Positions 1 to 18,518 of a DNA stretch of 64,000 nt are shown here, piece after piece. Every line of letters starts with the position of its first letter. Within the stretch, counting starts at the first letter, position 1. The notes below the pieces were generated by a model. It ran no database searches. It saw only the letters and a program-made list of their open reading frames with translations, and had not been told where the DNA came from. The translations under genes were made by a program, and so were the position numbers. The DNA comes from Oerskovia merdavium (GTDB lineage: Bacteria; Actinomycetota; Actinomycetes; Actinomycetales; Cellulomonadaceae), in contig NZ_JACSQF010000008.1 in the NCBI RefSeq assembly GCF_014836755.1, forward strand, positions 34,761-98,760. Direction: 5' to 3'.

Positions 1-1
1 A

Positions 2-38
2 TGGTGGTGGCTACACGAAAACACCACCCGCCCCCTGG
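2..38. repeat. Partial copy of a dispersed intergenic palindrome
   Basis: The first bases carry a GGTGGTGGCT...ACACCACCC segment that resembles the right arm of the palindromes at 14112-14163 and 16893-16962. Its left arm would lie before the window. It is more diverged than the other two copies, so membership in the family is likely but not certain. Confidence 0.45.
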
Positions 39-91
39 CGGCCCAGCCCGGGCATCCGGCCGAGACACCCGGGACGCCCGCTCCGGCGTCG

Positions 92-159
92 GGCCGGCGG
101 GCCGGCGGGCCGGCGGGCCGGCGGGCCGGCGGGCCGGCGGGCCGGCGGGCCGGCGGGCC
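92..159. repeat. Octamer tandem repeat (GGCCGGCG) x 8.5
   Basis: Eight perfect head-to-tail copies of the 8-base unit GGCCGGCG are followed by GGCC. Each unit contains the palindrome GCCGGC. The array lies in the non-coding gap downstream of the esterase stop codon, so it encodes nothing obvious. Such an array can expand or contract by slippage and is a likely assembly trouble spot. Confidence 0.9.
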
Positions 160-219
160 AAGCCAACAGAACCGGCGAGCTGTTTTCTCGAACGCGACCA
201 GGCCTCGAGCCGCCCGAAC

Positions 220-855
220 CTACCGAGCCTGAGCAGCCGGCAGCACCTTCTCCAGGAACGCCGACACGTCGGCGAGCTCCTCGGCGCTGATCGAGTGCGG
301 CAACCCCGGGTAGACGACCTCGGTCACGTCGGTGAACCGCGGCAGCCAGGTCGACGTCCGCGCGGTCGCGTCGGGCGCGATGACCTGGTCCGCGTCGCCG
401 TGACCGAAGAACACCGGCGGCCGGCGCGCCGCGAGCGCCGAATCGCCGGGCAGCTCCGCGTCGAGCACGAAGCCCGAGAGCACGACGCCCGCCGCGAACC
501 GCTCGGGCGCGGCCCGCAGGAGCTGGGTCACCATGAGCCCGCCCTGCGAGAACCCCACGGGTACGACGGCAGTCCCCGGCTCGACGTTCACGTCGAGCCA
601 GGCGAGCACCGCGGCGGTCGCGGCAGCCACAGGCTGCGGGTCAGGCCGCCCGGGCACCCCGAGAGGGAACCACGAGAACCCTCCGTTGCCCGCGGCCAGG
701 GGCGCTCGCAGCGAGGCCCAGTCCCACACCGCCGGCAGGTGCCCGGCGATCGCGGGCAGGTCGTGCTCGTGCGAACCGAACCCGTGGAGCAGCAGCAGGA
801 GCGGTCGCCCCGCCTGGTTGCTGCCGCGGACGTGGACCGTGATGTCAGCGCTCAT
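220..855 (-). CDS. Alpha/beta hydrolase, phospholipase/carboxylesterase family
   Basis: This 211-residue cytoplasmic protein belongs to the small alpha/beta-hydrolase (carboxylesterase/YpfH) family, which cleaves ester or thioester bonds. Visible landmarks are the oxyanion-hole strand LLLLLHGFGSHEHDL near residue 20, the nucleophile elbow GFSQGG with its catalytic Ser, the acid-residue strand FFGHGDADQVI and the late catalytic His in YPGLPHSIS. The ATG at 855 is chosen because AAGGA lies about nine bases upstream and the hydrolase fold begins right after it; the open frame further upstream has no homologous look. It stands alone and is divergent from telA. The substrate cannot be told from sequence. 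Confidence 0.85.
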   Translation of the reverse strand: MSADITVHVRGSNQAGRPLLLLLHGFGSHEHDLPAIAGHLPAVWDWASLRAPLAAGNGGFSWFPLGVPGRPDPQPVAAATAAVLAWLDVNVEPGTAVVPVGFSQGGLMVTQLLRAAPERFAAGVVLSGFVLDAELPGDSALAARRPPVFFGHGDADQVIAPDATARTSTWLPRFTDVTEVVYPGLPHSISAEELADVSAFLEKVLPAAQAR

Positions 856-931
856 GCCGAGAATCCTTCCATGGGGAGTTCTCACCCCCCTCAGGGCGTG
901 AAAGAGTAAAGAACCGGCCACCCGTCGCGGA

Positions 932-1008
932 TATACTCCCGGGACCGGTCGGTGGACCGGCTTGCCCGGTTCGCCGGGTTTCAGGGGTGGGTCTCGCGCT
1001 GACCCCTG
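932..1008 (+). promoter_or_regulatory. Putative promoter and structured leader of the telA-pknG operon
   Basis: TATACT at 932-937 is a near-ideal -10 hexamer in otherwise GC-rich DNA; no convincing -35 was found. The leader that follows holds two hairpins in a row: CCCGG-TTCG-CCGGG (965-978, a UUCG tetraloop) and CAGGGGT...ACCCCTG (982-1008). About 130 bases then separate the expected start of transcription from the telA start codon. Whether the hairpins regulate is unknown. Confidence 0.4.
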
Positions 1009-1072
1009 CTCCAGGATCGGCGTCCGGTCAGCGCCCCGGCAGCCGACCGGCAGAATCGAGCGAAGGATCACG

Positions 1073-2290
1073 ATGACCGAGGCAGCACCGCTCCAGCCCC
1101 CCGCCGCGACCGAGCACCTGGTGCTCTCGGCACCCGAGCCCGTGAAGCCCGTCGCGACCACGCAGGCTCCCGCGATGGCCCCGCGTGTCGACGAGGCAGC
1201 GATCCCCGGCCTGGACCAGAAGGTCACGTCCTACCTGGACGCGCTCATGGCCTCCGACGCCCGCTCCCCCGAGTTCGCCGCCAAGGCCAACGACGTGCGC
1301 ACCATGGGCGACCAGGACATCCGCACCGCTGCCGACTCCTCGAACCGCCTGCTGGCCACGCCCGTGCGCGCCCTCAAGGAGGGCGGGCTGTCCGAGGGCT
1401 CCAAGGTGGGCAGCACGCTCCTCGAGCTGCGCCGCACGGTCGAGAACCTCGACCCGTCCGAGGCGAGCATGGGCCGCAAGATCCTCGGCTTCATCCCGTT
1501 CGGCGACAAGCTGACGGACTACTTCCGCCGCTACGAGTCGGCCCAGGGCCACCTCAACGCGATCATCCGTGCGCTCTACGACGGCCAGGACGAGCTCCGC
1601 AAGGACAACGCGGCCCTCAACCTCGAGAAGCAGCACCTGTGGGACACCATGGCACGGCTCAACCAGTACATCTACGTGGCCGAGCGCCTCGACGCGCAGC
1701 TGTCCGCCAAGACCGCCGAGCTCGACGCGACGGACCCGGAGAAGGCCAAGGCCCTGCGCGAGGACGTCCTGTTCTACGTCCGCCAGAAGCACCAGGACCT
1801 CCTGACGCAGCTCGCGGTGTCCATCCAGGGCTACCTCGCGATCGACATCGTCATCAAGAACAACGTCGAGCTCATCAAGGGCGTCGACCGCGCGACCACC
1901 ACGACCGTCTCCGCGCTGCGCACGGCCGTCATCGTGGCCCAGGCCCTCGCCAACCAGAAGCTCGTCCTGGACCAGATCACGGCGCTCAACACGACCACGT
2001 CGAACATGATCGCCTCGACGTCCAAGATGCTCGCGGACCAGTCGGCGTCCATCCAGTCGCAGGCCGCGAGCGCGACCGTCGGGCTCCCCCAGCTCCAGGC
2101 CGCGTTCCAGAACATCTACGCGACCATGGACTCGATCTCGACGTTCAAGGTCCAGGCGCTCGACTCGATGGCGCAGACCATCGGCGTCCTGGAGACCGAG
2201 ACGACCAAGGCCCGCGAGTACCTGGACCGCGTGGCCCAGGGCGACCAGACCGGCGCCGCCACGGGCGCGCTCGACCTCGGAAAGGTCTGA
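1073..2290 (+). CDS. telA: TelA-family protein (toxic anion resistance)
   Basis: This 405-residue, mostly helical cytoplasmic protein belongs to the TelA/KlaA family (tellurite or toxic-anion resistance, also linked to envelope-antibiotic tolerance in Firmicutes; biochemical function unknown). Recognisable are the GRKILGFIPFGDKLTDYF segment near residue 140, which is typical of the family, and long helices with regular Gln/Leu spacing up to the C terminus. Length matches the family (about 380-400). The ATG at 1073 is chosen for the AAGGA eight bases upstream. It is the first gene of the ten-gene operon ending at 14039, ten bases ahead of the next gene. Here it probably works with the AAA+ ATPase and vWA protein rather than in metal resistance. 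Confidence 0.88.
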   Translation: MTEAAPLQPPAATEHLVLSAPEPVKPVATTQAPAMAPRVDEAAIPGLDQKVTSYLDALMASDARSPEFAAKANDVRTMGDQDIRTAADSSNRLLATPVRALKEGGLSEGSKVGSTLLELRRTVENLDPSEASMGRKILGFIPFGDKLTDYFRRYESAQGHLNAIIRALYDGQDELRKDNAALNLEKQHLWDTMARLNQYIYVAERLDAQLSAKTAELDATDPEKAKALREDVLFYVRQKHQDLLTQLAVSIQGYLAIDIVIKNNVELIKGVDRATTTTVSALRTAVIVAQALANQKLVLDQITALNTTTSNMIASTSKMLADQSASIQSQAASATVGLPQLQAAFQNIYATMDSISTFKVQALDSMAQTIGVLETETTKAREYLDRVAQGDQTGAATGALDLGKV

Positions 2291-2300
2291 TCCGGACACC

Positions 2301-2858
2301 ATGGGCTGGTTCCAGAACCTGTTCGGCGGCGGGCGCAACCGCCCGCCGGAGATCCCTGCGCTGCCTCCGGCGCCCACGAGCGCGGACATCCTCGCCTCGG
2401 TCGACGCCGTCCAGGCGCAGATCGAGGGCAGGGTCCCGCCCGCGGTGACCGCGCGCGTGAACCGCATCGCCAAGACCGTGGACGACATGGCGCCGCGCCT
2501 CGACCGCCTGGGGGGCGGCACGGCCCAGGCGCACACGGTCGTGGCGACCGCGACGAGCTACCTGCCGGAGGCCGTGGGCGGCTACCTGCGCCTGCCGCGC
2601 GACTTCGCGGACACGCGCGTCATCAACCGCGGCAAGACGTCGCTCATGATCCTGTGCGACCAGCTCGACCTGCTGGGCGTGACGCTCGACAAGATCTCGG
2701 ACGCGGTCTCGCGCGCCGACGCCGTGGCGCTCGTGGCGCACGGGCAGTTCCTCGCGGAGAAGTTCCAGACATCCTCGATCGCCCTGGCCCCCGAGGCCGG
2801 GCTCGGCTCGGCCCAGCCGCAGGCGCCGGGGACCCCGGGCGGGCTGGAACGACCATGA
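2301..2858 (+). CDS. XpaC-like helical protein, TelA partner
   Basis: This 185-residue protein has no confident family. It starts with a short Gly/Trp-rich stretch (MGWFQNLFGGG), then a Pro-rich linker, then helices. The segment TSYLPEAVGGYLRLP followed by a long amphipathic helix resembles the C-terminal part of XpaC (DUF 5-bromo-4-chloroindolyl phosphate hydrolysis family), whose gene sits beside telA in Bacillus. The match of context and pattern suggests an XpaC-like TelA partner, but this is inference. Its stop overlaps the ATPase start by four bases (ATGA), so the two are translationally coupled. Confidence 0.6.
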   Translation: MGWFQNLFGGGRNRPPEIPALPPAPTSADILASVDAVQAQIEGRVPPAVTARVNRIAKTVDDMAPRLDRLGGGTAQAHTVVATATSYLPEAVGGYLRLPRDFADTRVINRGKTSLMILCDQLDLLGVTLDKISDAVSRADAVALVAHGQFLAEKFQTSSIALAPEAGLGSAQPQAPGTPGGLERP

Positions 2859-4600
2859 GCGCCGCGCGCCAGGGGGCGCTCGCCCGCAGCATCGCGGTGC
2901 TGACCACGGTGGGTCGCCAGGCGGGCCTCGTGCCCGACGACGTCACGCGCGAGGGCGAGCGTCTCGCCGCCGCGGTGGCCGAGTCGTCCACGGGCGCCGC
3001 GCCCGCGTGGCTCGAGGCCGTGGGCCGCGCCCCCGACGACTTCACCGCGTTCTTCGAGGCCGCCCAGCGCGGTCGCCGGTGGCGCTCGGCCCCGACCGAC
3101 CAGCTCACGACCCTCGTGCTGGCCGGCTCGGAGCACGCCGGCGCCTACGCCGAGGCGCTCGCGAGCGTGATCGACGCGGCCGGCGCCCTGGGCTCCCCCG
3201 GGCTCGCGGTATCGGCCAACGCCGCGTCCACGACGGCCGTACAGCGGGCCGCGGCCCAGCCCCGCACCACGCCGCAGCCGGCAGGGCCATCAGTGCCGTC
3301 AGCGCCGGCGGGCCCCCCGGCGGCCGGGCCTCACCCGCACGGCAAACCCACCCGCTTCCCCGCGCCCTCGTTCGACCCGACCCTCCCGAGCGGCACGAAC
3401 CCGTTCGACCTGGGGTCCCTCGTCGGCGCGGGCGGGCTGCGGCCCCCTGCTCAGGACGTCGTCCCCACGGTCGACGCGATCCTCGACGCCCTGGGTGCGC
3501 GCACCCCGGGCGACGCGGCCCCCCCGACGCACGCGACGCCGTCGGGCACACCGGCCGCCGGCGGCCCGCAGAGCGCGACCACGGGCGACGCCCCCGCCGA
3601 GGAGGAGACCGAGGCCGAGCCGCCCCGGTCGCTCGAGGAGCTCCTGGCCGAGCTCGACGCCCTGATCGGGCTCGACCGGGTCAAGCACGAGATCCGTCAG
3701 CAGACCGAGCTCCTGCGCATCGAGCAGCTCCGCACGGCCGCAGGCCTGACCCGGCCCACGCTCACGCGCCACCTCGTGTTCCTCGGCAACCCCGGGACGG
3801 GCAAGACGACCGTCGCCCGCCTGGTCGCCGGGATCTACCGCGCGCTCGGGCTGCTGAGCAAGGGGCACCTGGTCGAGGTCGACCGTTCCGAGCTCGTCGC
3901 GGGCTACCTGGGCCAGACGGCCGTCAAGACCTCGGAGGTCGTGGCGACCGCGATCGGCGGCGTCCTGTTCATCGACGAGGCCTACGGCCTCGCGGAGGAC
4001 CAGTACGGCGCCGAGGCGATCAACACGCTCGTCAAGGACATGGAGGACCACCGCGACGACCTCGTGGTGATCGTCGCCGGGTACCCCGGCCCCATGGCCT
4101 CCTTCATCGCGACCAACCCCGGCCTCGAGTCGCGCTTCTCGACGACCATCACGTTCGACGACTACTCGGACGCCGAGCTGCGCGGGATCTTCGAGCGCAT
4201 GGCCACCTCGGCCGACTTCGAGCCGCTGCCCACGACCCTCGACCGGTTCGAGGAGATGGTCTCGCTCGTCCCGCGCACCGAGGGGTTCGGCAACGGACGC
4301 CACGCGCGCAACGTCCTGGACGGGGCCATCGCCCGTCACGCGTGGCGCCTCAAGGACACGCCCGAGCCCACGCTCGACGAGCTGCGCCGCCTCCTGCCCG
4401 AGGACCTGCTCCCCGCGGGCGAGGCGCCCGAGAGCATCCTGCAGGCGACGCCCACCGAGGACGCCGCGCCTGCGGACGTGCTCGACGAGCCCAGCTCGGC
4501 GGACGACGACCTCGACCTCGCCGAACCCGCCGAGGACCACCAGCCCGACGACGACCAGCCCACCGACGCGACCGTCTCCCCTCAGGAGGAGCCTGCATGA
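2855..4600 (+). CDS. CbbX/SpoVK-type AAA+ ATPase
   Basis: A 581-residue protein. Residues 1 to about 250 are Ala/Pro-rich and poorly conserved; the C-terminal half is an AAA+ ATPase of the CbbX/SpoVK class. Walker A GNPGTGKT is at about 311-318, Walker B VLFIDEAYGL ends near Asp374, and the ESRFSTT arginine-finger segment is at about 427. An acidic tail (DEPSSADDDLDLAEP) closes the protein. CbbX relatives remodel other proteins by threading them through a hexamer. The start at 2855 is the ATG that overlaps the previous stop; its own stop overlaps the next start. In this operon it could be the remodelling motor working with the vWA protein, as MoxR/vWA pairs do (inference). Confidence 0.88.
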   Translation: MSAARQGALARSIAVLTTVGRQAGLVPDDVTREGERLAAAVAESSTGAAPAWLEAVGRAPDDFTAFFEAAQRGRRWRSAPTDQLTTLVLAGSEHAGAYAEALASVIDAAGALGSPGLAVSANAASTTAVQRAAAQPRTTPQPAGPSVPSAPAGPPAAGPHPHGKPTRFPAPSFDPTLPSGTNPFDLGSLVGAGGLRPPAQDVVPTVDAILDALGARTPGDAAPPTHATPSGTPAAGGPQSATTGDAPAEEETEAEPPRSLEELLAELDALIGLDRVKHEIRQQTELLRIEQLRTAAGLTRPTLTRHLVFLGNPGTGKTTVARLVAGIYRALGLLSKGHLVEVDRSELVAGYLGQTAVKTSEVVATAIGGVLFIDEAYGLAEDQYGAEAINTLVKDMEDHRDDLVVIVAGYPGPMASFIATNPGLESRFSTTITFDDYSDAELRGIFERMATSADFEPLPTTLDRFEEMVSLVPRTEGFGNGRHARNVLDGAIARHAWRLKDTPEPTLDELRRLLPEDLLPAGEAPESILQATPTEDAAPADVLDEPSSADDDLDLAEPAEDHQPDDDQPTDATVSPQEEPA

Positions 4601-5964
4601 GCCAGACCCTGACGCCGCCGCCCGGGTCCGCCCCCGCGCCCGGTCGGGCCGTCCAGCCCGCCCACCCCGGTCAGCCGGGCGGGCAGGCCGGAACGGCGCC
4701 CACGACGCAGGCCCAGGAGCGTGCGGAACGCCGGGCCGGGGTCCGCAGCGCGCTGCGCCGCACCCCGGGCAAGCTGCGGATCGCGCTCGCGGTGTGCGTG
4801 CTCGCCTCGATCGTCTTCGGTGCGCTCGGCTTCCAGGCCGCGCGCGTCCAGGGGATCGCGCTCGAGGACGCGCGCTCGGACACGAGCCAGCTCGTGGGCA
4901 TCCAGGACGTGCGCAACAACCTGGTCGTGGCCGACGCGTCCGCGACCAACGCGTTCCTGGTCGGAGGCCTCGAGCCCGCGGACCAGCGCGAGCGCTACGA
5001 CGACGCGATCGCGAACGCCTCGATCCGTCTCGCCGAGCTCGCGGGCGCCAACAGCGCCGACGCGACCGAGCTGGGCGTGGTCGCGTCGCAGGTCACGGTC
5101 TACACGGGGCTGATCGAGCAGGCGCGAGCGAACAACCGGCAGGGCTTCCCGGTGGGCTCGGCCTACCTCGACCAGGCCTCGACGCTGCTGCGCGACGAGA
5201 TCCTGCCGACGCTCACGACGCTCGTCGACGACAACGCCGAGCGCGTCGCGTCCGACCTGTCGATGGTGCGCAACGCGATGTGGATCCTCGCGGCTGGACT
5301 GCTGTGCCTCGCGCTGCTGATCGTCACGCAGGTCTGGCTCGCCAAGCGCACGCACCGCGTCCTCAACGTGGGCCTGCTGGTCGCGAGCATCGTGATCCTG
5401 GTCGTGGGCGTGGGCGGGGCCGTCCTGCTGAGCCAGACCAACAGCGCGGCCGCCGCGGTCCGCGACGGCCCGTACGCCGCGACGCTCGCGGCCTCGACCG
5501 CGTACTCCGAGGCCAACGACGCCAAGGCCATGGAGAGCTTCACGCTCATCAAGCGCGGCTCGGGCCAGACGTACGAGGAGTCGTTCGTCGAGCTGACGGC
5601 CGACGCGACGCAGCGACTCGACCAGGCGGGGGCCGACGGGAACCTCGACGGCACGTCCGCCGGGTACCTGGGCGAGTGGATCACCCAGCACCAGGCCATC
5701 CGCGCGCTCGACGACGCGGGAGACTGGGACGGGGCGGTCGCGCTCGCGACGAGCTCGGACGAGGGCGGTCCGAACGCCGCGTTCGCCGCGTTCTCGCAGA
5801 CGGTCACGTCCGACATCGCCGAGAACATCAAGGCCACGCAGGCTGACCTCGCCTCGGCCGGCAACCGCTCGGCCCTCGCGGGCTGGCTCCTGCTGGCAGC
5901 GGGTCTCGCCGCGGCGGTCCTCGCCTGGCGCGGCCTGAACGTCCGACTGGAGGAGTACCGGTGA
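4597..5964 (+). CDS. glnX: GlnX-like four-pass membrane protein
   Basis: A 455-residue membrane protein with a Pro/Ala-rich cytoplasmic N terminus of about 50 residues. Four hydrophobic segments are visible: IALAVCVLASIVFGALGF, WILAAGLLCLALLIVTQVW, VGLLVASIVILVVGVGGAVL and AGWLLLAAGLAAAVLAW. Two extracellular helical loops of roughly 130-140 residues lie between segments 1-2 and 3-4. This layout and its place directly before a GlnH-type binding lipoprotein and PknG match GlnX of the mycobacterial glnX-glnH-pknG module, where it passes amino-acid binding by GlnH to the cytoplasmic kinase. It overlaps both neighbours by four bases. The assignment rests on layout and context more than on sequence motifs. 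Confidence 0.75.
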   Translation: MSQTLTPPPGSAPAPGRAVQPAHPGQPGGQAGTAPTTQAQERAERRAGVRSALRRTPGKLRIALAVCVLASIVFGALGFQAARVQGIALEDARSDTSQLVGIQDVRNNLVVADASATNAFLVGGLEPADQRERYDDAIANASIRLAELAGANSADATELGVVASQVTVYTGLIEQARANNRQGFPVGSAYLDQASTLLRDEILPTLTTLVDDNAERVASDLSMVRNAMWILAAGLLCLALLIVTQVWLAKRTHRVLNVGLLVASIVILVVGVGGAVLLSQTNSAAAAVRDGPYAATLAASTAYSEANDAKAMESFTLIKRGSGQTYEESFVELTADATQRLDQAGADGNLDGTSAGYLGEWITQHQAIRALDDAGDWDGAVALATSSDEGGPNAAFAAFSQTVTSDIAENIKATQADLASAGNRSALAGWLLLAAGLAAAVLAWRGLNVRLEEYR

Positions 5965-6959
5965 TCACCTCGACCTTCCGCAAGAGCGGGCGCATGGGCG
6001 CCCTGGTGGCGCTGGGGCTCTCGGGCGCCCTGGTCCTGGCCGCCTGTGCCACGCCCGACGCAGCCCCCTCCGCGGGAGCGCCCGTCGCCTCGGTCGTGGG
6101 GACGTCGGGCGGAGCGGCCGGGTCCTCGGTCGCCGCTGCGGCGACGTGCGAGAACCCCGTCGCGTCCTACGCCCCCGACGGGCCGCTGCCCGGACCGGGA
6201 GCTCTGCCCGCGGGCAGCACCATGGCCGCGATCCGCGACCGCGGCTCGCTGATCGTCGGCGTCTCGGCCGACACGCTCCAGCTCGGGGCCCGCAACCCGC
6301 TCAGCGGGCAGATCGAGGGCTTCGACATCGACGTGCTGCACCAGGTGTCGAACGCGATCTTCGGTGACCCGGACCGGCTGCAGTTCCGCGTCATCACCTC
6401 GGGCCAGCGCCTCGAGGTGCTCGAGAACGGCGAGGTCGACGTGGTCGCCCGTGCCTTCACGATCAACTGCGAGCGCTGGGAGACCATCGCGTTCTCCTCG
6501 GAGTACTACCACGCGGGCCAGAAGGTCCTCGTGACGCGCGACTCCGAGGCGCAGGGCATCGCAGACCTCGCGGGCCAGCGCGTGTGCGCACCGGACGGCA
6601 CCACGACGCTCGAGCGCCTCCAGGAGTACCCCGACATCACCGCGGTCCCCGCGACCACGCACACGGGCTGCCTCGCGCTGTTCCAGCAGGGCAAGGTCGA
6701 CGCGATCACGGGCGACGACACGATCCTCGCGGGCTTCGCGGCCCAGGACCCGTACGCCAAGGTCGTGGGTCAGGCGATCTCGGACGAGCCCTACGGCCTG
6801 GGCATCCCGGCCCAGAACGTCGACATGGTCAAGTTCGTCAACGGCGTCCTGGAGCAGATGCGCACCGACGGCACGTGGACGGCGCTGTACGACGAGTGGC
6901 TCGGCGTGCTCGGCCCGGCCCCCGCGCCGCCCGTCGCCGTCTACGGCCGCACGCCGTGA
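5961..6959 (+). CDS. glnH: GlnH-like amino-acid-binding lipoprotein
   Basis: A 332-residue solute-binding protein of family 3. The signal peptide ends in lipobox LAAC with the lipidated Cys at 29, so it is tethered to the outer face of the membrane. The two-lobed fold is marked by GSLIVGVSADTLQLG, the GFDIDVLHQVSNAIFG strand-helix, NGEVDVVARAFTIN and GKVDAITGDDTILAGF. In mycobacteria GlnH binds Asp/Asn/Glu-type ligands and signals to PknG. No ABC permease or ATPase is encoded nearby, so a sensing role is more likely than transport. The GTG start overlaps the stop of the GlnX-like gene. Confidence 0.88.
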   Translation: MITSTFRKSGRMGALVALGLSGALVLAACATPDAAPSAGAPVASVVGTSGGAAGSSVAAAATCENPVASYAPDGPLPGPGALPAGSTMAAIRDRGSLIVGVSADTLQLGARNPLSGQIEGFDIDVLHQVSNAIFGDPDRLQFRVITSGQRLEVLENGEVDVVARAFTINCERWETIAFSSEYYHAGQKVLVTRDSEAQGIADLAGQRVCAPDGTTTLERLQEYPDITAVPATTHTGCLALFQQGKVDAITGDDTILAGFAAQDPYAKVVGQAISDEPYGLGIPAQNVDMVKFVNGVLEQMRTDGTWTALYDEWLGVLGPAPAPPVAVYGRTP

Positions 6960-8149
6960 CCTCTGCCTCGTCCGCCTCGCCTGCTGCCGGGCCGCCCGTC
7001 GCCCCCCGGACCCAGCAGGCTCCGAGCGCGCCCGGACGTCTCGGCGAGGCGATCCCCGCGGCCGAGCTCTACGAGTACCTCTCCCGGCTCGAGGAGTGGC
7101 TGCGCGCCCGGCGGACCGAGCTCGACCGCCTCGACGCGGCCGCCCAGTCCGCGGCGTCCCCCGAGACGTACACGGCCGACATGCTGCTGGCCATGACCCT
7201 CTGGCAGGCGGCCCGCACGCGCGCCGACGAGATGGGCGCCGTGTGGGACTCGGGGCGCGCCGACGCGGTGGGCCGCGAGAAGATCTCCCAGCTCGTCTGG
7301 GGTCGGCTCAGCTCGCCCGACGGCTCGTCGCTCGTCTCGCTCGTGGAGGCCACGCGGCTGTGCGACGCGATCGTCTCCGCGCTGCGCACCCGTCTGTCGT
7401 TCGACCCGAACGCGGCCGACGAGGTCGCGCGCTTCCGCGGGCTGCGCGCCGAGCTGGCGCGCTGCGACGAGCTCGCGGGATCCGACACCACGGCTCGCGG
7501 ACGCGTCGAGAAGCTGCGCGAGCGGTGGACGAGGCTGCGCGACAAGGCGTCGAACGGCGCCGACGTCACGGGCCCCCTCACCGAGCTCGAGGCCGAGGTC
7601 GCGCGCACCGAGCGGGACCTCATCGTGGGCGCCTCCGAGCGCCGCGAGCTCGCCCGCGACCGCAAGCAGGCGGTCGAGCGCTATGCGGCCCTCGAGGCGC
7701 GCGAGCCCTCGCTGCGCGAGCTCGCGGCCCGGTGCCGGCGCGAGATCGCCGCTCCCCCGCGCCTCGCGGTGCCCGACGTCTCACGGCTGGGCGAGGTCCC
7801 CGCGGACCGCGCCGGGCTCGACGGGTTCCTCACGCGCCTCGCGACCGTCGCGCGCGCGTTCGACACGGTCGAGGCCTCCTACTCCGCGCCGCTGCGCGAG
7901 CGCGCCGAGCTCCGCTACCGGCTCGACGCGTACCGCGTGCGGGCCGACTCGAACGGGCGCAGCGCGTCCCCCACGGTCCGGTCGGGACTCGCCGAGGCCC
8001 GCGCGGCGGGCGAGGCCGTACCGTGCGACGTCGTCCTCCTGCGCTTCCTCGTCGAGCAGTACCAGTTCCTGACCCGCGACCTGCCTGCTCACCTCTCGTC
8101 TCCCGCCCCTGGATCGTCGCCCGTCCCGGGCCAGGAAGGATCGTCCTGA
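6956..8149 (+). CDS. Helical protein of unknown function in the pknG operon
   Basis: A 397-residue soluble protein that I do not recognise. After an Ala/Pro-rich start it is rich in Arg, Glu, Ala and Leu with heptad-like patches (for example LRERWTRLRDK and LEAEVARTERDLIVG), so it is probably a coiled-coil or helical-bundle scaffold. There is no signal peptide, membrane segment or Cys cluster. The GTG at 6956 overlaps the glnH stop and its TGA overlaps the pknG ATG, so it is translated with both. The position between the sensor lipoprotein and the kinase suggests a cytoplasmic adaptor (inference). Confidence 0.7.
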   Translation: MTSASSASPAAGPPVAPRTQQAPSAPGRLGEAIPAAELYEYLSRLEEWLRARRTELDRLDAAAQSAASPETYTADMLLAMTLWQAARTRADEMGAVWDSGRADAVGREKISQLVWGRLSSPDGSSLVSLVEATRLCDAIVSALRTRLSFDPNAADEVARFRGLRAELARCDELAGSDTTARGRVEKLRERWTRLRDKASNGADVTGPLTELEAEVARTERDLIVGASERRELARDRKQAVERYAALEAREPSLRELAARCRREIAAPPRLAVPDVSRLGEVPADRAGLDGFLTRLATVARAFDTVEASYSAPLRERAELRYRLDAYRVRADSNGRSASPTVRSGLAEARAAGEAVPCDVVLLRFLVEQYQFLTRDLPAHLSSPAPGSSPVPGQEGSS

Positions 8150-10506
8150 TGACCACATCGACCACGCAGGAGCCGTGCGCCCAGCCGGGCTGCGACGGCT
8201 TCATCGAGGACGGCTACTGCAACGTCTGCGGCTCGCCGGGCGGATCGTCCGCGTCGCCCGTGCCCTCCACGGGGGGTGCCACGGGCACGACGACGTCGCC
8301 CGGCGCGGCAGCGTCGCCGTCGGCCATGCTCGGCACGGGGATCGCCCAGGCCGCACCGAACTACGCCGCCGGTCCCGGACCCGAGGGCGAGGCCGTGTCC
8401 ACGCGCACGGGCCGGACCAGCTCGACCCAGCTCGCGAGCGCCGCGCTGGGCTCGGCCCGCTCGGCCGTCACGGGCACCAAGTCCACGCGCCGTGTCGGCA
8501 CGTCCTCGACGCGTCTGCGCGGGCACCGCCTGGGCGCGGGCCTCACGACCGTCCCCAGCGCCCCCGTCCGCGACCCGCTCCAGGCCATCATGGCCGTGCC
8601 CGAGCTCGCCGAGTCCAAGCGCTTCTGCCCCACGTGCGGCGCCAAGGTGGGCCGCTCGCGCGACGGCGTCCCGGGCCGCACCTCGGGATTCTGCCCCCAG
8701 TGCCGCACCGCGTTCTCGTTCGACCCGCAGCTCTCGCCCGGCGACGTGGTCGGCGGACAGTACGAGGTCGTGGGCTGCCTCGCGCACGGCGGGCTCGGCT
8801 GGATCTACCTGGCGCGCGACCAGAACGTCTCGGGCCGCTGGGTCGTCCTCAAGGGCCTGCTCAACTCGGGAGACCCCGACGCGTTCGCGGCCGCGATCTC
8901 CGAGCGCCAGTTCCTGGCCGAGGTCGAGCACCCGCTCATCGTCGAGATCTACAACTTCGTCATGCACGACGGCGCGGGCTACACCGTCATGGAGTACGTG
9001 GGCGGCAAGTCGCTCAAGGAGATCCTCAAGGACCGCCGCGACGAGAACGGCGGCGTGGTCGCCCCGCTGCCCGTGGACCAGGCGCTCGCGTTCGTGCTCG
9101 AGATCCTGCCGGCGTTCGCCTACCTGCACGACCTGGGCCTGATCTTCTGCGACTTCAAGCCCGACAACATGATCCAGCAGGGCGACGGCGTCAAGCTCAT
9201 CGACCTGGGCGGCGTGCGGCGCCTCGACGACATGACGTCGGCGATCTTCGGGACCGTGGGCTACCAGGCCCCCGAGGTCGCCGAGGTCGGCACCTCGGTC
9301 GCGTCCGACATCTACACGATCGGGCGCACCCTCGCCACGCTCGTGCTCGACTTCCGCGGCAACCAGACGACGTACGTCTCCTCCCTGCCGCCGGTCGCCG
9401 AGACGCCCGTCTTCCAGAAGTACGACTCGTTCTACCGCCTGCTCGCCAAGGCCTGCGCGCTCGACCCGTCCGACCGCTTCGCGACGATCGACGAGATGCG
9501 CGCCCAGCTCATCGGGGTCCTGCGCGAGGTCGTCGCGACCGACCGGGGCCCGGGCAGCGGGGCGCTGCACTCGGCCGCGTCGATGCTCTTCGAGGCCCCG
9601 GTGTCCGACGACGCCGACGCGCCGCTGACCTGGGACGCGCTGCCCGCGCTCAAGGTCGACGAGTCCGACCCCATGGCCAGCTGGCTCGCGGGCGTCAACA
9701 TCGCCGACCCCGCGGCGCGCATGGCCGCGCTGGCCGCGGCCCCCGAGGGCACGGTCGAGGTCCGCCTCGCCTACGCCCGGGCCGCGATCGAGCACCGTCG
9801 CTTCACCGAGGTCGAGAAGACCATCGCCTCGATCCTCGCCGACGACCCGTGGGAGTGGCGGGCCGCGTGGATGGGCGGGCTCGCCGAGCTCGCACGCGGC
9901 GAGGCCGCCGCGGCGCGCGCCTCGTTCAACGCGGTCTACGGCCAGGTGCCCGGCGAGCTCGCGCCCAAGCTCGCGCTCGCCGTCTCGTGCGAGGTCAGCG
10001 GCGAGCCGGACATCGCCGAGTCCCTCTACGTGATCTGTGCCCGCTCGGACGCCAACTACACGGCCCCGGCGGCGTTCGGGCTCGCCCGGATCCGCCAGGC
10101 CCGCGGTGACCTCGACGGCGCGCTGCACGCCCTGGACCTGGTCACCCCGACCCGGAGCTCGTACACCGACGCGCGCATGCGCCGTGCGCGCCTGCTCGCA
10201 GGGTCCGGCCGTGGCCTCCCGGCCCTGGCCGAGGCGCTCGCGAGCGTCGAGTCGGTCGCGATCCCCCAGCGGGAGCGGGTCTCGCTCTCGATCGACGTGC
10301 TGAGCTCGGCGCTCGCGGAGGTCACGACCGCGTCGACGAAGCAGGTCGGCACCGTGCGCATCGGCGGTGTCGAGCCCAAGGAGCCGCCGCTCCGCGACGC
10401 CCTCGAGGGGGCCTACCGCGAGATGGCGACGCTGACCGACGACAAGATCGCGCGCATCGACCTCGTGGACCAGGCCAACGCCGTGCGCCGCTGGACCACG
10501 ACGTGA
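8149..10506 (+). CDS. pknG: Serine/threonine protein kinase PknG
   Basis: A 785-residue soluble kinase with the full PknG layout. An extra N-terminal zinc ribbon (C10, C15, C24, C27) comes first, then a Ser/Thr/Arg-rich linker, the rubredoxin-like ribbon (C160, C163, C182, C185), a kinase domain at about 200-470 and a TPR-like tail to 785. Kinase landmarks are AHGGLGWIYLA, the ATP Lys235 in VVLKGLL, catalytic Asp335 in FCDFKPDN and metal Asp352 in LIDLGG. Known PknGs phosphorylate the FHA protein GarA/OdhI to control 2-oxoglutarate/glutamate flux. Here an FHA protein and a phosphatase lie downstream in the same operon. The first zinc ribbon is not part of the mycobacterial enzyme as I know it. 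AGGAAGG precedes the ATG. Confidence 0.95.
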   Translation: MTTSTTQEPCAQPGCDGFIEDGYCNVCGSPGGSSASPVPSTGGATGTTTSPGAAASPSAMLGTGIAQAAPNYAAGPGPEGEAVSTRTGRTSSTQLASAALGSARSAVTGTKSTRRVGTSSTRLRGHRLGAGLTTVPSAPVRDPLQAIMAVPELAESKRFCPTCGAKVGRSRDGVPGRTSGFCPQCRTAFSFDPQLSPGDVVGGQYEVVGCLAHGGLGWIYLARDQNVSGRWVVLKGLLNSGDPDAFAAAISERQFLAEVEHPLIVEIYNFVMHDGAGYTVMEYVGGKSLKEILKDRRDENGGVVAPLPVDQALAFVLEILPAFAYLHDLGLIFCDFKPDNMIQQGDGVKLIDLGGVRRLDDMTSAIFGTVGYQAPEVAEVGTSVASDIYTIGRTLATLVLDFRGNQTTYVSSLPPVAETPVFQKYDSFYRLLAKACALDPSDRFATIDEMRAQLIGVLREVVATDRGPGSGALHSAASMLFEAPVSDDADAPLTWDALPALKVDESDPMASWLAGVNIADPAARMAALAAAPEGTVEVRLAYARAAIEHRRFTEVEKTIASILADDPWEWRAAWMGGLAELARGEAAAARASFNAVYGQVPGELAPKLALAVSCEVSGEPDIAESLYVICARSDANYTAPAAFGLARIRQARGDLDGALHALDLVTPTRSSYTDARMRRARLLAGSGRGLPALAEALASVESVAIPQRERVSLSIDVLSSALAEVTTASTKQVGTVRIGGVEPKEPPLRDALEGAYREMATLTDDKIARIDLVDQANAVRRWTTT

Positions 10507-11738
10507 GCGCGGAGGACACCGGCGTGCTCGCGCCCTGCGCCACGTGCGGCGAGGTCCCCGCTCCCGGGGCGAGGTTCTGCGAGAACTGCGGCTCCGACGT
10601 CGGGCCGGCGGCGGGCGCCGCGGGCGGGCCGCCCGTCCTGGCGCGCCCTCCCGTGCCCGCGCTGCCCGAGCCTCCTGCCGACCTCAAGCCGACCGATCCC
10701 CCGGTCGACCCGGCGTCCGACCCCGTGCCCCCGCCCCCTCCCGTCGCCACTCACCGCCCCTGCACGAGCTGCGGCGGGACCGTCGCGGACGACGGCTACT
10801 GCGAGCAGTGCGGCGAGAAGGCCCAGGTCGAGCGCGACCACTGGGCCGAGCGACCCGCGCCCTGGGTCGCGGGCGTGTGCGACCGCGGCATCCGCCACGC
10901 GCGCAACGAGGACGCCATGGCGCTCGCCGCGTCGGGCGATCCGGCCACGGCCGGGCGCTTCGCGGCGCTCGTGGTGTGCGACGGGGTCTCGGCCGCGCCG
11001 GACTCGGACGTCGCGAGCCTCGCGGCCGCGCGTGCGGCCCGGGACGTGCTCGCGTCGGGCGGGCCCGACGGCGCCACCCCCGTCACGGGGGACGTCACCG
11101 AGCGCATCCAGGCCTGGCAGGCCCTCATGGTCGCGGCCTCCACGACCGCGAACGACGCCGTGCTGGTCGCGGTGGGCGACAAGGCCGAGCGGGCCGAGCC
11201 GCCGTCGTGCACGTTCGTCGCGGCCGTCGTGGACGGCCCGCTGATCGTCGCGGGGTGGGTCGGCGACTCGCGCGCCTACTGGATCCCCGACACCGGCACG
11301 GCCCGCCAGCTCAGCGTCGACGACTCGTGGGCGCACGAGCTCATGGCCATGGGCACCCCGCGCCACGTGGCCGAGAACTCGCCCCAGGCGCACGCGATCA
11401 CGCGCTGGCTCGGCCCCGACTCGACCGACCCGGCCGCGCGGTGCGCCCCGACGGTCCCGGACTCGTCGGGCTGGCTGCTGGTCTGCTCGGACGGCCTGTG
11501 GAACTACTGCTCAGCGGCCGACGACCTCGCGGACCTCGTGCGCTCGACCGAGGCCTCGACGGGGCGCGAGCCCCGGGCGCTGGCCACCGAGCTCGTGCGC
11601 TGGGCCAACGCCCAGGGCGGCCGCGACAACATCACGGCGACCCTCGCCCGGTTCGAGGCGCTCCCCGCCTCGACCACCTCCGATAACCTGCACACAGACG
11701 CTGTCACGGGCGACGAGCCCGCGACGCGCGCCCTCTGA
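10503..11738 (+). CDS. PP2C-family protein phosphatase with zinc ribbons
   Basis: A 411-residue cytoplasmic phosphatase. Two short zinc ribbons open the protein (CATCGEVPAPGARFCENCG near residue 10 and CTSCGGTVADDGYCEQCG near 86), joined by a Pro-rich linker. The PP2C domain follows, with metal-binding motifs RHARNEDAMAL, VVCDGVS, GWVGDSRAYW, LLVCSDGLWNY and GGRDNITATLARF. It is expected to remove phosphate placed by PknG on Ser/Thr of shared targets. The GTG start overlaps the pknG stop by four bases. A kinase and phosphatase coupled this tightly suggest a reversible switch. Confidence 0.93.
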   Translation: MSAEDTGVLAPCATCGEVPAPGARFCENCGSDVGPAAGAAGGPPVLARPPVPALPEPPADLKPTDPPVDPASDPVPPPPPVATHRPCTSCGGTVADDGYCEQCGEKAQVERDHWAERPAPWVAGVCDRGIRHARNEDAMALAASGDPATAGRFAALVVCDGVSAAPDSDVASLAAARAARDVLASGGPDGATPVTGDVTERIQAWQALMVAASTTANDAVLVAVGDKAERAEPPSCTFVAAVVDGPLIVAGWVGDSRAYWIPDTGTARQLSVDDSWAHELMAMGTPRHVAENSPQAHAITRWLGPDSTDPAARCAPTVPDSSGWLLVCSDGLWNYCSAADDLADLVRSTEASTGREPRALATELVRWANAQGGRDNITATLARFEALPASTTSDNLHTDAVTGDEPATRAL

Positions 11739-11760
11739 TCCACGAAGGAGCCCAGAACCC

Positions 11761-13044
11761 ATGGCCGAGTTCTCCGCCGAGGTCTTCCAGAACGAGTTCC
11801 TGTCCGAGGGCGCCACGGATGTGCACGCCATCGTGACGGTGACCGCCCGAGGGGCAGGTCAGGCCGGTGCCGCGACCTCCGGGGGCGGCGTCGCCGAGAT
11901 CATCATGGTCGACACGTCCGGCTCGATGTCGGGACGCAACATGGAGTCCGCCAAGTACGCGGCGCAGGTCGCGGTCGACCAGATCCTCGACGGGACCTGG
12001 TTCGCGATCGTCGGCGGCAGCCATGTCGCGCAGCGCGCGTTCCCCTATCCCAACGCGCGCGTCGCGATGGTCCAGATGGAGCCTGCGGCGCGTGAGGAGG
12101 CCAAGCGGGCCATCGCGATGATGAGCCCGTCGGGCGGCACCGCGATGAGCACGTGGCTCCAGCTCGCTGCCCAGCTCTTCGACACCGTCCCCCAGGCCGC
12201 GCAGCGCCACGCGATCCTGCTGACGGACGGCAAGAACGAGTCCGAGCCGCGCGAGAACCTGTCGCAGGTCGTGCGCAACGTGACCGGGAAGTTCCAGTGC
12301 GACGCGCGCGGCGTCGGGTCCCGCTGGCAGGTCGACGAGCTGCGCGAGATCTCGACGGCCCTGCTCGGGACGGTCGACCTGATCGCCGACCCGAGCGAGA
12401 TCGCGGCCGACTTCTCCTCGCTCATCCAGAAGTCCATGTCGCGTGGCGTGGCCTCCGCGGACCTGCGCGTGTGGGCCCCGCAGGGCGCGCAGGTGCTGTT
12501 CGTCCGCCAGGTCGCCCCGACGGTCGAGGACCTCACGACGCGCCGCGCCGTGGTCAACCCGCTCACGGGCTCCTACCCCACGGGGTCGTGGGGCGACGAG
12601 TCGCGCGACTACCACGTGGCCGTGCGCGTGGCCTCGAAGCCCGTGGGCTCCGAGCAGCTCGCCGCGCGGGTGCAGCTCGCCGTGAACGGCGAGGTGGTCT
12701 CGTCGGGTCTGGTCAAGGCCAAGTGGTCCGACGACGGTGCGCTCACCACGCGCATCAACCCCGAGGTCGCGCACTACACGGGCCAGGCCGAGCTCGCGTC
12801 CGCGATCCAGGAGGGCCTCGCGGCCAAGGCTGCGGGCGACGAGGCGACGGCCACGGTCAAGCTCGGCCGCGCGGTCCAGCTCGCGGCCGAGACGGGCAAC
12901 GACGAGGCGACCTCGCGCCTGCGCAAGGTCGTGGAGATCGAGAGCGAGGAGCAGGGCACGGTGCGCCTCAAGCGCAACACCGACAAGCTCGACGAGATGG
13001 CCCTCGACACGGCCTCGACCAAGACCACGCGGGTCAAGCGATGA
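11761..13044 (+). CDS. von Willebrand factor A (vWA) domain protein
   Basis: A 427-residue protein without signal peptide. A vWA domain spans about 45-215 with an intact metal-ion-dependent adhesion site: D51-x-S53-x-S55 in MVDTSGSMSG, T127 in SGGTAMS and D156 in LLTDGKNE. A beta-rich middle follows, then a charged helical C terminus after about residue 340. The architecture resembles TerY-like and other cytoplasmic vWA proteins that partner with AAA+ ATPases. An AAGGAG ribosome site lies upstream in a 22-base gap, the widest gap within this operon. The stop overlaps the FHA gene start by four bases. Confidence 0.9.
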   Translation: MAEFSAEVFQNEFLSEGATDVHAIVTVTARGAGQAGAATSGGGVAEIIMVDTSGSMSGRNMESAKYAAQVAVDQILDGTWFAIVGGSHVAQRAFPYPNARVAMVQMEPAAREEAKRAIAMMSPSGGTAMSTWLQLAAQLFDTVPQAAQRHAILLTDGKNESEPRENLSQVVRNVTGKFQCDARGVGSRWQVDELREISTALLGTVDLIADPSEIAADFSSLIQKSMSRGVASADLRVWAPQGAQVLFVRQVAPTVEDLTTRRAVVNPLTGSYPTGSWGDESRDYHVAVRVASKPVGSEQLAARVQLAVNGEVVSSGLVKAKWSDDGALTTRINPEVAHYTGQAELASAIQEGLAAKAAGDEATATVKLGRAVQLAAETGNDEATSRLRKVVEIESEEQGTVRLKRNTDKLDEMALDTASTKTTRVKR

Positions 13045-14039
13045 GCGCGATCTGCCCCAACGGGCACGCGTCCGAGTCGACCGACTACTGCGACGTGTGC
13101 GGCGAGCCCATGGGGGCCGCGTCGAGCAGCGCGTCGGGGGCGGTGTCCTCCGGCTCCGCGGGGGCCGGCGCGCCCGCCGCCTGCGAGGGTGCCGGTGGTG
13201 GCGAGCCGATCACGTGCCCGCACTGCTCGTTCCCGGCCGCGGCCGGTGCGCTGTTCTGCGAGAACTGCGGCTACGACTTCACGACGGGCTCGCTGCCCGA
13301 GCCCGCCGGGGCGCCGTCGGCCGCGACCCCCGCGCCGCTCGCTCCCCCGGCGTCCTCGCTCGACCTGGACCCGGTAGCCCCTCCCGCAGGGTCGCCCGCG
13401 GCCGCGCCGTCGCCCGACCCCCTGTCGGCTCCGGCGGCCCTCACGCCGCCCGGGGTCGATCCCGGGGCGGGTGGCCCGTCGACTGCCGCGGTCGCCGCCG
13501 GTGCCCCGGGGACGGGTCCGCTCGTCGCTCCCGGTGCTCCTGCCGACCCGGCCGAGGGCGAGGCGACGTCCGCGCGGACGGGCGCGACGCCGTCGGGCTC
13601 CGGGACGCACCTGCCCACCCCGCCCGTGCCGGGCGAGGACCAGTGGGTCGTCGAGGTGTGGATCGATCCCGACTGGTACCAGGCGCAGAAGGCCGAGGAC
13701 CCGTTGCCCTCGGCCGGGCTGCCGGGGCTCGTGGTGCTGCGCGAGCGCAGCGTGCTCGTGGGACGTCCGTCGGCGTCGCGCAACATCCACCCGCAGATCG
13801 ACTGCGGCGCCGACTCGGGCGTCTCGCGGCGGCACTGCCAGCTCAACACCGACGGGCAGCGCTGGTGGGTCGAGGACCTCCAGTCGTCCAACGGGACGTA
13901 CCTCAGCCCTGCGGGCGGCGAGCTGCCGATCGACCCGATCCCCGCCGGCCAGCGCCGCGAGGTCGCCGACGGCGACCGCATCTACCTCGGTGGGTGGACG
14001 CGGCTCGTGATCCGCAAGGCGATGCCCGGCGAGGTCTGA
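13041..14039 (+). CDS. Zinc-ribbon and FHA-domain protein
   Basis: A 332-residue protein with an N-terminal ribbon (CPNGHASESTDYCDVCG), a second ribbon (CPHCSFPAAAGALFCENCG near 58), a long Pro/Ala linker and a C-terminal FHA domain at about 230-330. FHA landmarks are R242 in VGRPS, S262-R-R-H in GVSRRHC and N284 in SSNGT, the residues that read phosphothreonine. GarA/OdhI, the known PknG targets, are FHA proteins, but this one lacks their obvious N-terminal ETT phosphosite. It could be a PknG target that uses Thr residues of the linker, or a reader that gathers phosphorylated partners. It is the last gene of the operon. Confidence 0.9.
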   Translation: MSAICPNGHASESTDYCDVCGEPMGAASSSASGAVSSGSAGAGAPAACEGAGGGEPITCPHCSFPAAAGALFCENCGYDFTTGSLPEPAGAPSAATPAPLAPPASSLDLDPVAPPAGSPAAAPSPDPLSAPAALTPPGVDPGAGGPSTAAVAAGAPGTGPLVAPGAPADPAEGEATSARTGATPSGSGTHLPTPPVPGEDQWVVEVWIDPDWYQAQKAEDPLPSAGLPGLVVLRERSVLVGRPSASRNIHPQIDCGADSGVSRRHCQLNTDGQRWWVEDLQSSNGTYLSPAGGELPIDPIPAGQRREVADGDRIYLGGWTRLVIRKAMPGEV

Positions 14040-14111
14040 CCCTCGTGGTGTGACGGCGGGCGGCGCGAGGCCCCCGTCGGGCGCGCCCTCCGGCGAGGTC
14101 TGAGATCGGGG

Positions 14112-14163
14112 GGTGTCGTCCGCGCAGCCACCACAATGGTGGTGGCTGCGCGAACAACACACC
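14112..14163. repeat. Dispersed intergenic palindrome, copy B
   Basis: Two arms of about 23 bases (GGTGTCGTCCGCGCAGCC... and ...GGCTGCGCGAACAACACACC) face each other around a 3-4 base centre. The same arm sequence recurs at 16893-16962 and in part at 2-38. The element lies after the FHA gene and could end operon transcription, but there is no T-run. Confidence 0.75.
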
Positions 14164-14268
14164 TGTCCCCGGGCACCGGTCGAGCCGCGGACCGTCAGGA
14201 GATCGCCCCGTCCTGACGCGTGGGGGGACGGCTCGTTCCCCGGTTGCACGCCCCTCCTCGCGGAGTAC

Positions 14269-14282
14269 GCTCAAAAATGAGC
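14269..14282. promoter_or_regulatory. Candidate TetR operator
   Basis: GCTCA-AAAA-TGAGC is a perfect inverted repeat 22 bases ahead of the TetR start codon. It stands out as an A-rich patch in GC-rich DNA, and its spacing suits binding by a TetR dimer. It probably gives autoregulation and control of the downstream ohyA gene. Confidence 0.45.
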
Positions 14283-14304
14283 ACACTCACCAGGAGGTGG
14301 TGTC

Positions 14305-15012: not shown

Positions 15013-15092
15013 CGTCCGGGCCGAGGGCGGAGATCCCGCCGCGGCCCGTGCTGCACCCACTTCAGAAGATCCGTCGATGAAGGGAATGGCAC

Positions 15093-16862: not shown

Positions 16863-16892
16863 GGCGGGTCGTCGCACCGCGTCCGGCTCCCC

Positions 16893-16962
16893 GGGGGTGG
16901 GGTGCGTTGTTCGCGTCGTCGCAACAATCGTGGTGGCTGCGCGAACGACACACCCCACCCCC
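16893..16962. repeat. Dispersed intergenic palindrome, copy C
   Basis: Long arms GGGGTGGGGTGCGTTGTTCG and CGAACGACACACCCCACCCC face each other 31 bases after the ohyA stop. The core GTGGTGGCTGCGCGAAC matches copy B at 14112-14163. It is long enough to act as a terminator for ohyA; the repeated sequence marks it as a member of a family. Confidence 0.75.
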
Positions 16963-17046: not shown

Positions 17047-17052
17047 GCCGGT

Positions 17053-18512: not shown

Positions 18513-18518
18513 TCGACC

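Follow-up and report, generated by a model that had tools for sequence, protein, structure and literature searches.

The window, the 64,000-nucleotide stretch of Oerskovia merdavium DNA analysed here, carries a block of ten plus-strand genes (1073–14039) that forms a real and conserved unit, probably a signalling one, in Micrococcales, Propionibacteriales and Kineosporiales. The genes encode, in order, TelA, a 185-amino-acid (185-aa) protein, an AAA+ ATPase, GlnX, GlnH, a 397-aa protein, PknG, a PP2C phosphatase, a vWA protein and an FHA protein. By analogy with an archaeal switch, the chances are slightly better than even that the sensor would signal to PknG, that a phosphorylated tail of the vWA protein would be read by the FHA protein and reset by the phosphatase, and that this circuit would be joined to a TelA/AAA+ output. 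The features of the block are as follows, all on the plus strand.

1073..2290, plus strand: telA (TelA, PF05816), 405 aa; Pfam 316 bits against a cut-off of 30; alternative TTG start at 962
2301..2858, plus strand: small TelA-partner gene, 185 aa, helical, without a family; homologues near telA in other lineages too
2855..4600, plus strand: CbbX/SpoVK/EccA-type AAA+ ATPase, 581 aa; Pfam AAA and AAA_lid_6; Walker A and B conserved
4597..5964, plus strand: GlnX-family membrane signal protein, 455 aa; NCBIfam NF058618, 318 bits against a cut-off of 250
5961..6959, plus strand: GlnH-like solute-binding lipoprotein, 332 aa; SBP_bac_3; PDB 6h1u (GlnH) E 1e-69; Cys29 conserved
6956..8149, plus strand: all-helical protein, 397 aa, without a family; confident AlphaFold model
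8149..10506, plus strand: PknG, with N-terminal zinc ribbon, Ser/Thr-rich linker, PknG_rubred, Pkinase and PknG_TPR (Pfam matches above cut-off)
8176..8232, plus strand: N-terminal zinc ribbon of PknG, residues 10–28; C10, C15, C24 and C27 each in 96% of 81 rows
10503..11738, plus strand: PP2C phosphatase, 411 aa, with two N-terminal zinc ribbons; PP2C_2/PP2C; catalytic Asp and eight Cys conserved
11761..13044, plus strand: vWA protein, 427 aa; VWA_3 and VWA_3_C; metal-ion-dependent adhesion site (MIDAS) D51/S53/S55/T127/D156 intact
12991..13041, plus strand: C-terminal tail of the vWA protein, residues 411–427, nearly invariant, proposed phosphosite
13041..14039, plus strand: FHA protein, 332 aa, with two zinc ribbons; phosphothreonine-pocket residues R242, S262 and N284 conserved

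An original prediction from the letters of the window had described ten co-directional genes, most overlapping by four bases, and this is borne out: 4-nucleotide overlaps occur at six of the nine junctions (2855, 4597, 5961, 6956, 10503 and 13041). The junction at 8149 overlaps by 1 nucleotide, and gaps of 10 and 22 bp separate telA from the small gene and pp2c from vwa. Conserved residues begin directly after ATG 1073, which is therefore the likelier start of telA than TTG 962.

Conservation and origin of the ten-gene block

Named genomes were scanned with an alignment of the PknG proteins from seven ten-gene loci, and the best 80 of 556 relatives were surveyed, a gene counting as present at 25 bits. 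All ten genes stand in the same order and on one strand at 66 of these 80 loci, the weak calls among them being telA at L196 (66 bits) and the AAA+ gene at L239 (46 bits). The 66 loci belong to Cellulomonadaceae (17), Nocardioidaceae (11), Kribbellaceae (10), Promicromonosporaceae (9), Intrasporangiaceae (5), Kineosporiaceae (4), Microbacteriaceae (2), Propionibacteriaceae (2), Beutenbergiaceae (1), Streptomycetaceae (1) and genomes without a family (4). Contig ends interrupt 12 of the remaining 14; the two true departures are found in Nostocoides jenkinsii (L235, a locus containing 300 N) and Myceligenerans (L244). Since similarity to the window PknG decided which 80 loci were taken, the 66 of 80 should not be read as a frequency in actinobacteria at large; the class sample described below is fairer in that respect. 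The nearest named relatives returned by the scan are Oerskovia species, with PknG 92% identical.

The same arrangement appears when loci are sampled through TelA. Of the 29 TelA genomes in a class sample of 148, the TelA neighbourhoods of 20 were fetched, and six of these (L058, L059, L061, L062, L063 and L066) carry the complete block, in order and on a single strand. Their main aligned segments are 34–70% identical to the window proteins at the amino-acid level. The flanking genes served as a control. The esterase, TetR and MCRA genes recur in one of 86 loci, that of a sister Oerskovia; 65 of the 80 loci extend more than 1 kb before telA and 62 more than 3 kb after fha. The question whether the set is conserved across genomes is thus answered by 66 of 80 PknG loci and 6 of 20 TelA loci, the order not being confined to one genome, and the claim that kinase, phosphatase, reader and AAA+ motor are encoded together stands as a statement about a conserved unit.

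Two of the surveyed loci deserve separate mention. In Myceligenerans salitolerans (L244), PknG, GlnX, GlnH and PP2C are kept, and TelA and VWA_3_C were not found in the genome, a possible joint loss seen in one case. The ten-gene block at L205 comes from a genome titled Streptomyces sp. SID13031; the PknG tree places it with Kribbella, and the genome is probably a mislabelled Kribbella relative.

The wider setting of PknG was defined in a class sample of 148 genomes, in which PknG_TPR exceeds its cut-off in 46, VWA_3_C is present in 33 and TelA in 29; in a phylum-wide sample PknG_TPR exceeds its cut-off in 11 of 149 genomes. Of the 46 PknG genomes, 30 have a vWA gene no more than 5 kb from PknG and on the same strand, equivalent to 30 of the 33 VWA_3_C genomes. 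Outside f6, the group closest to the mycobacterial Pfam model and by inference mycobacteria-like, the proportion rises to 30 of 35, and VWA_3_C is found in none of the 11 PknG-bearing f6 genomes. TelA and PknG are both present in 19 genomes, although they are no more than 12 kb apart in just 7 of the 46.

Hidden Markov models of the ten genes, run on 55 fetched loci, resolve several forms of the neighbourhood. Groups f5 and f63 have GlnX-GlnH-(397-aa)-PknG-PP2C-vWA-FHA, where the match to the 397-aa protein is weak, lies mostly in its C-terminal third and is missing in some loci. Group f62 has PknG-PP2C-vWA-FHA-GlnX-GlnH in 4 of 7 loci, and f6 has GlnX-GlnH-PknG in 5 of 7 and PknG alone in 2. 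PP2C and FHA genes are also present in 13 of the 14 fetched pknG-vWA loci that have a strong vWA match and lie outside the ten-gene lineage. The other 14 fetched TelA loci do not have the ten-gene block; 10 of them have a small-gene homologue within about 2.5 kb, and one (L060) has TelA with AAA+.

The TelA side of the block apparently joined the PknG block once. A single change suffices for the TelA-linked clade on a quick tree built from 70 PknG rows (SH-aLRT, the Shimodaira–Hasegawa-like approximate likelihood ratio test, 100). Of the 80 named loci, 28 entered the tree; L235 and L244, which have no nearby telA, were given the label of their clade, so that two later changes have to be added. 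The original prediction regarded the whole assembly as a possibly undescribed composite. This reading narrows to the addition of TelA, the small gene and AAA+, which are the only genes that can be called merged, since PknG beside vWA is the usual arrangement outside f6 and, at 30 of 46 PknG genomes, a common one. The comparison with mycobacteria, where glnX-glnH-pknG was said to be a three-gene unit, agrees with published descriptions (PMC6069109, PMC8546545). The three-gene operon is reported there as widely conserved (Bhattacharyya et al., 2018, PMC6069109), and the word "phosphatase" does not occur in the main text of that paper.

Two observations weigh against the preferred reading of the block. 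Nostocoides jenkinsii has telA and vWA apart from pknG, and in 22 of the 29 TelA genomes of the class sample TelA lies apart from PknG or PknG was not found, so TelA works without PknG.

Additional PknG-like genes occur in several loci. L130, L131 and L151 (genomes G023, G123 and G232) have a second, very divergent PknG-like kinase; the adjacent vWA protein carries a zinc ribbon at its end in place of the Thr tail. In the f63 loci L143, L145, L153, L160 and L161 a second PknG paralogue is accompanied by GlnH- and GlnX-like genes, of which several lie on the opposite strand; L160 and L161 have a vWA gene as well.

The flanks of the window block are a divergent esterase gene upstream and, directly downstream (14305–16862), a TetR-type regulator followed by an MCRA-family gene, which we take to be of the oleate hydratase type. 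At 1–220 on the plus strand, beside the esterase gene, an open reading frame translates into short RRAGGPAG-type peptide repeats, suggesting a small tandem DNA repeat. A promoter and terminator scan found none and is uninformative, and Rfam gave no match at its gathering score in window 1–20000. The assembly (G000) comprises 4.49 Mb in 46 contigs, the window lying on C45.

PknG, its sensor and GarA

The kinase and its sensor are recognisable counterparts of the mycobacterial proteins. PknG matches Mycobacterium tuberculosis PknG (2pzi, E 1e-169), and its residues K235, D335, N340 and D352 are conserved at 97% or more in alignments of 71–81 rows, as are the PP2C metal-site motifs, the vWA MIDAS, FHA residues R242, S262 and N284, and the AAA+ Walker motifs. 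Key FHA and vWA residues are also kept in mixed sets that include more distant loci (22 and 28 rows). GlnX scores 137 bits against the narrower equivalog NF041460, which asks for 780. Of the M. tuberculosis GlnH positions, R147, S164 (as Thr or Ser), R169 and D250 are preserved in all 77 rows and T162 in 15 (the others having mostly Asn or Ala), and W232 is replaced by His in 62. The contact positions are those published for the M. tuberculosis protein (PMC6069109). Of the three pocket positions in contact with the aspartate side chain, two are therefore altered in the window protein, whereas those that bind the amino-acid backbone are kept, and the window GlnH probably still binds an amino acid. 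Between glnH and pknG sits the gene at 6956–8149, which the original prediction did not name.

Despite the shared core, the system departs from the GlnX-GlnH-PknG-OdhI/GarA pathway of Corynebacterium and Mycobacterium. Both have a GlnX family protein, a GlnH-like lipoprotein, a PknG of rubredoxin, kinase and TPR parts, these genes as neighbours, and GarA/OdhI encoded elsewhere. The window has seven further genes and an extra zinc ribbon at the N-terminus of PknG. This ribbon is a suggestive marker of vWA linkage. In 40 rows the two features occur together in 20, vWA without ribbon in 5, ribbon without vWA in 2 and neither in 13, and over all loci the same classes hold 89, 7, 6 and 14 rows, with 5 dropped. 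The association goes no further than suggestion because three of the 20 ribbons (L130, L131 and L151) resemble rubredoxin knuckles, the 40-row table leaves out one row that has no recognised P-loop, some loci are cut by contig ends and the rows are related.

The usual target of PknG is also present. GarA/OdhI homologues were found in 28 of 28 genomes tested (E ≤0.001; best E 2e-35 or better), including the window's own genome (contig C43, E 2e-45). The GarA family cut-off is exceeded in only 5 of the 28, the window's genome not among them, and an acidic-(Ser/Thr)-Thr motif precedes the FHA domain in 18 of the 28, as judged by eye. The idea that the operon FHA protein is the organism's GarA is accordingly rejected, since a separate homologue exists; the operon protein is additional. 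This modifies the earlier contrast with mycobacteria, where the FHA target was said to lie elsewhere: it does lie apart from pknG there, but it lies elsewhere here too, and the operon FHA protein does not replace it. With GarA homologues in all 28 genomes, PknG may serve two targets. GarA/OdhI homologues of L249–L261, L264, L265, L268, L269 and L272 have a zinc-ribbon-like CxxC segment before the FHA domain, a segment not seen in the f6 loci L245–L248.

These GarA results bear on a simpler account in which the block is an ordinary PknG-to-GarA/OdhI switch, the vWA, FHA and PP2C proteins being accessory PknG modulators or GarA competitors and the TelA/AAA+ genes merely sharing the promoter. The GarA homologues in all 28 genomes, the motif in 18 of the 28 and the 11 of 11 PknG-bearing f6 genomes that lack VWA_3_C speak for it. 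The strict order that binds TelA, the small gene and AAA+ to the rest at 66 of 80 loci in ten named families speaks against it, and GarA is kept even where PknG was not detected (G008, G060, G082, G133 and G247), so that its presence is no marker of PknG function. We regard this account as unlikely, though it deserves serious weight.

Likeness to the archaeal ArnA–ArnB switch

The preferred scheme, in which PknG would act on the neighbouring vWA protein, draws on the ArnA–ArnB pair that regulates the archaellum in Sulfolobus. ArnA binds the C-terminal part of ArnB, where the ArnB phosphosites lie (Hoffmann et al., 2019, PMC6509490). In the account that accompanies the ArnAB complex structure 8S05, ArnB is loosely held by the ArnA ribbon, FHA binding becomes tight on phosphorylation by ArnC (a kinase that has a TPR-like stretch), and the nutrient state sets the switch (Watad et al., 2026, PMC12852372). 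PP2A reverses the phosphorylation (Ye et al., 2020, PMC7472852). The window likewise has a zinc-ribbon FHA protein, a vWA protein predicted to be tripartite, a Ser/Thr kinase that contains TPR-like repeats, a phosphatase and a putative link to nutrients. It differs in being bacterial, in having two ribbons where ArnA has one, in having its genes in one block with sensor and kinase, in lacking an archaellum and in the sequence of its Thr tail.

The ArnA match of the FHA profile spans ribbon and FHA domain together (8s05_C, E 5e-11; 5a8i, E 7e-11), and the window protein has the ArnA architecture of a zinc ribbon with an FHA domain bearing a phosphothreonine pocket. For the vWA profile the match to 4FX5 is full-length (E 1e-172), and that to ArnB covers the vWA domain (8s05_A, E 7e-9, profile positions 50–220), so that sequence homology to ArnB does not span the whole protein. 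PDB 4FX5, named just "von Willebrand factor type A", is Caci_2163 of Catenulispora acidiphila, a close homologue of the window protein over its full length, tail included, with Val at the position of T417. It shares the three-part fold of the ArnB paralogue vWA2, and its MIDAS has been described (PMC6509490). By this full-length homology the window vWA protein is predicted to have a beta-sandwich and a C-terminal helical domain with an intact MIDAS. Watad et al. note that ArnB-like architectures elsewhere, the C. acidiphila protein being named, mostly do not take part in such multi-phosphorylation processes (PMC12852372), and the main texts of PMC6509490 and PMC12852372 do not mention PknG. 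Open-licence PubMed Central literature, judged by titles and abstract openings, gave no paper relevantly joining PknG with TelA/vWA/FHA, TerY/TelA triads, tellurite, von Willebrand or ArnB. The PP2C protein has no PDB sequence match at E ≤1e-10.

The C-terminal tail of the vWA protein is its candidate phosphosite. The protein ends in DEMALDTASTKTTR(V/I) followed by basic residues, and D411, E412, M413, L415, D416, T417, S419, T420, K421, T422 and R424 are identical in 75 of 75 rows of the ten-gene lineage. By conservation the tail ranks third among the 411 17-residue stretches of the protein; in none of the other nine proteins do the final 17 residues place higher than 80th on this measure. 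So strict a preservation of a C-terminal end suggests a binding or phosphorylation motif, and the aliphatic residue at +3 from T422 would make this threonine suitable for an FHA domain. In relatives that lack TelA, S419 and T422 are mostly retained. The tail also resembles the GarA peptide SDEVTVETTSVFRADFL (PMC8546545) in the form D-E-x-x-x-(D/E)-T-x-S. This GarA-like reading is not relied on, because GarA motifs differ outside mycobacteria and T417 is not kept throughout.

Related zinc ribbons of the form D-(G)-Y-C-x-x-C-G recur in the PknG, PP2C and FHA proteins. Since ArnB is docked by the ArnA ribbon, the vWA protein may be the docking site for all three. A stronger form of the proposal, a self-contained bacterial ArnAB-type switch, would make the vWA protein a hub that docks kinase, phosphatase and reader through these ribbons, is phosphorylated on its Thr tail and drives a TelA/AAA+ membrane machine in one actinobacterial lineage. 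We advance this form tentatively and would not expect it to hold in full.

Several results count against the likeness and against the tail as its switch. The plant FHA domain 1uht (E 2e-11) outscores ArnA and GarA comes close (E 9e-10), both over the FHA domain only; the vWA proteins 4cn8 (E 4e-17) and inter-alpha-trypsin inhibitor chains outscore ArnB. Because other proteins outscore the Arn pair, the likeness rests on domain architecture and the published 4FX5 fold and not on sequence rank. The window phosphatase is of the PP2C family, whereas that of ArnAB is PP2A. Outside the ten-gene lineage the tail varies, T417 being Ala or Val in some relatives, and the vWA paralogues of L146, L160 and L161 are without it.

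The TelA side of the block and the proposed scheme

The part list of the original prediction stands for TelA, the CbbX-type AAA+ protein, GlnX, GlnH, PknG, PP2C, vWA and FHA. Its XpaC-like protein, the small gene at 2301–2858, is unsupported, since none of 10 homologues matches Pfam XpaC at E up to 10, with the proviso that HMMER filters may drop weak matches. TelA with XpaC is a Bacillus-type pair. The window pair is alike in placing TelA beside a small helical protein, and the small gene presumably recalls XpaC solely by that place. The model of the small protein (predicted local distance difference test, pLDDT, 79.8) has no PDB match at E ≤0.001 and gives only common helical-bundle alignments (best Z 12.1). 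The 397-aa protein is modelled at pLDDT 91.7 and a predicted template modelling score (pTM) of 0.64, again with no PDB match at E ≤0.001; its VIA Z values reach 10.9 with large root-mean-square deviations, EzrA among the rows, and are not distinguishable from those of generic long helices. The AAA+ protein belongs to the AAA_lid_6 subfamily of CbbX, SpoVK and EccA and is closest in the PDB to CbbX (E 3e-57) and EccA1. It falls below the CbbX, SpoVK and EccA equivalog cut-offs (222, 244 and 226 bits against 459, 423 and 467) and has its own long N-terminal region. A defence reading of the block was rejected, the PADLOC models being matched only generically, by the kinase and the AAA+ protein.

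The company of a vWA protein, a PP2C phosphatase, a kinase and TelA on one strand recalls a Ter-like system for xenobiotic or membrane stress, in which the first three would act as a TerY-type triad driving TelA and AAA+ and GlnH/GlnX would sense a non-nutrient signal. TerY triads and TelA contexts were reportedly treated by Anantharaman et al. in 2012, and the three activities do stand side by side as in those triads, with TelA present. The two altered side-chain contacts of GlnH fit such a signal, but its retained backbone positions do not. The window kinase, in contrast to those of TerY-type triads, is PknG and has an amino-acid sensor attached. No TerB, TerC, TerD or TerZ match was found among the ten proteins at E ≤0.01, nor among the three flanking proteins, and PADLOC gives no match at E ≤0.001 for the vWA, PP2C or TelA proteins. 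Such a system is improbable here.

Lower still stands the proposal that the AAA+ protein is a partner of the vWA protein, as in MoxR/vWA or CbbX-like chaperone pairs, and pulls its C-terminal tail, with phosphorylation of the tail gating the pulling. CbbX pulls on a C-terminal tail; the window ATPase is nearest to CbbX and EccA1, and the tail varies more where the locus lacks an AAA+ gene than across the 75 rows of the ten-gene lineage, in which it is at its most uniform. Against this, S419 and T422 are kept also in vWA proteins of loci without AAA+, and the AAA+ gene of L060 stays with telA, with no vWA gene in 19 kb. We consider a pulling pair quite improbable. Short spacers are common in high-GC genomes, which speaks for a chance neighbourhood or hitch-hiking of unrelated genes, but an order kept at 66 of 80 loci against flanks recurring in 1 of 86 makes that explanation barely credible.

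In the preferred scheme, GlnH and GlnX would report an extracellular amino acid to PknG, as published for mycobacteria and corynebacteria. PknG would phosphorylate the vWA protein encoded nearby, the Thr-rich C-terminal tail and the helical domain being the likeliest sites. The FHA protein would bind the vWA protein weakly through a ribbon before phosphorylation and tightly through FHA–phosphothreonine contacts after it, and the PP2C protein would reverse the modification, in parallel with archaeal ArnA–ArnB, where ArnC is the kinase and PP2A the phosphatase. In Micrococcales, Propionibacteriales and Kineosporiales this switch would be joined to TelA, its helical partner and the CbbX/EccA-like AAA+ protein, which the fixed gene order leads us to take as its output, a putative membrane-associated remodelling machine.

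The literature sampled here treats PknG as part of a three-gene unit acting on GarA/OdhI, and the present counts suggest that this is only one form of several. If the hub form of the proposal is true, TelA gains a defined upstream signal from an amino-acid-tuned vWA hub. The likeness to ArnAB would supply a ready experimental template and offer a function for structure 4FX5, making two questions testable: whether PknG has further substrates, and what TelA does.

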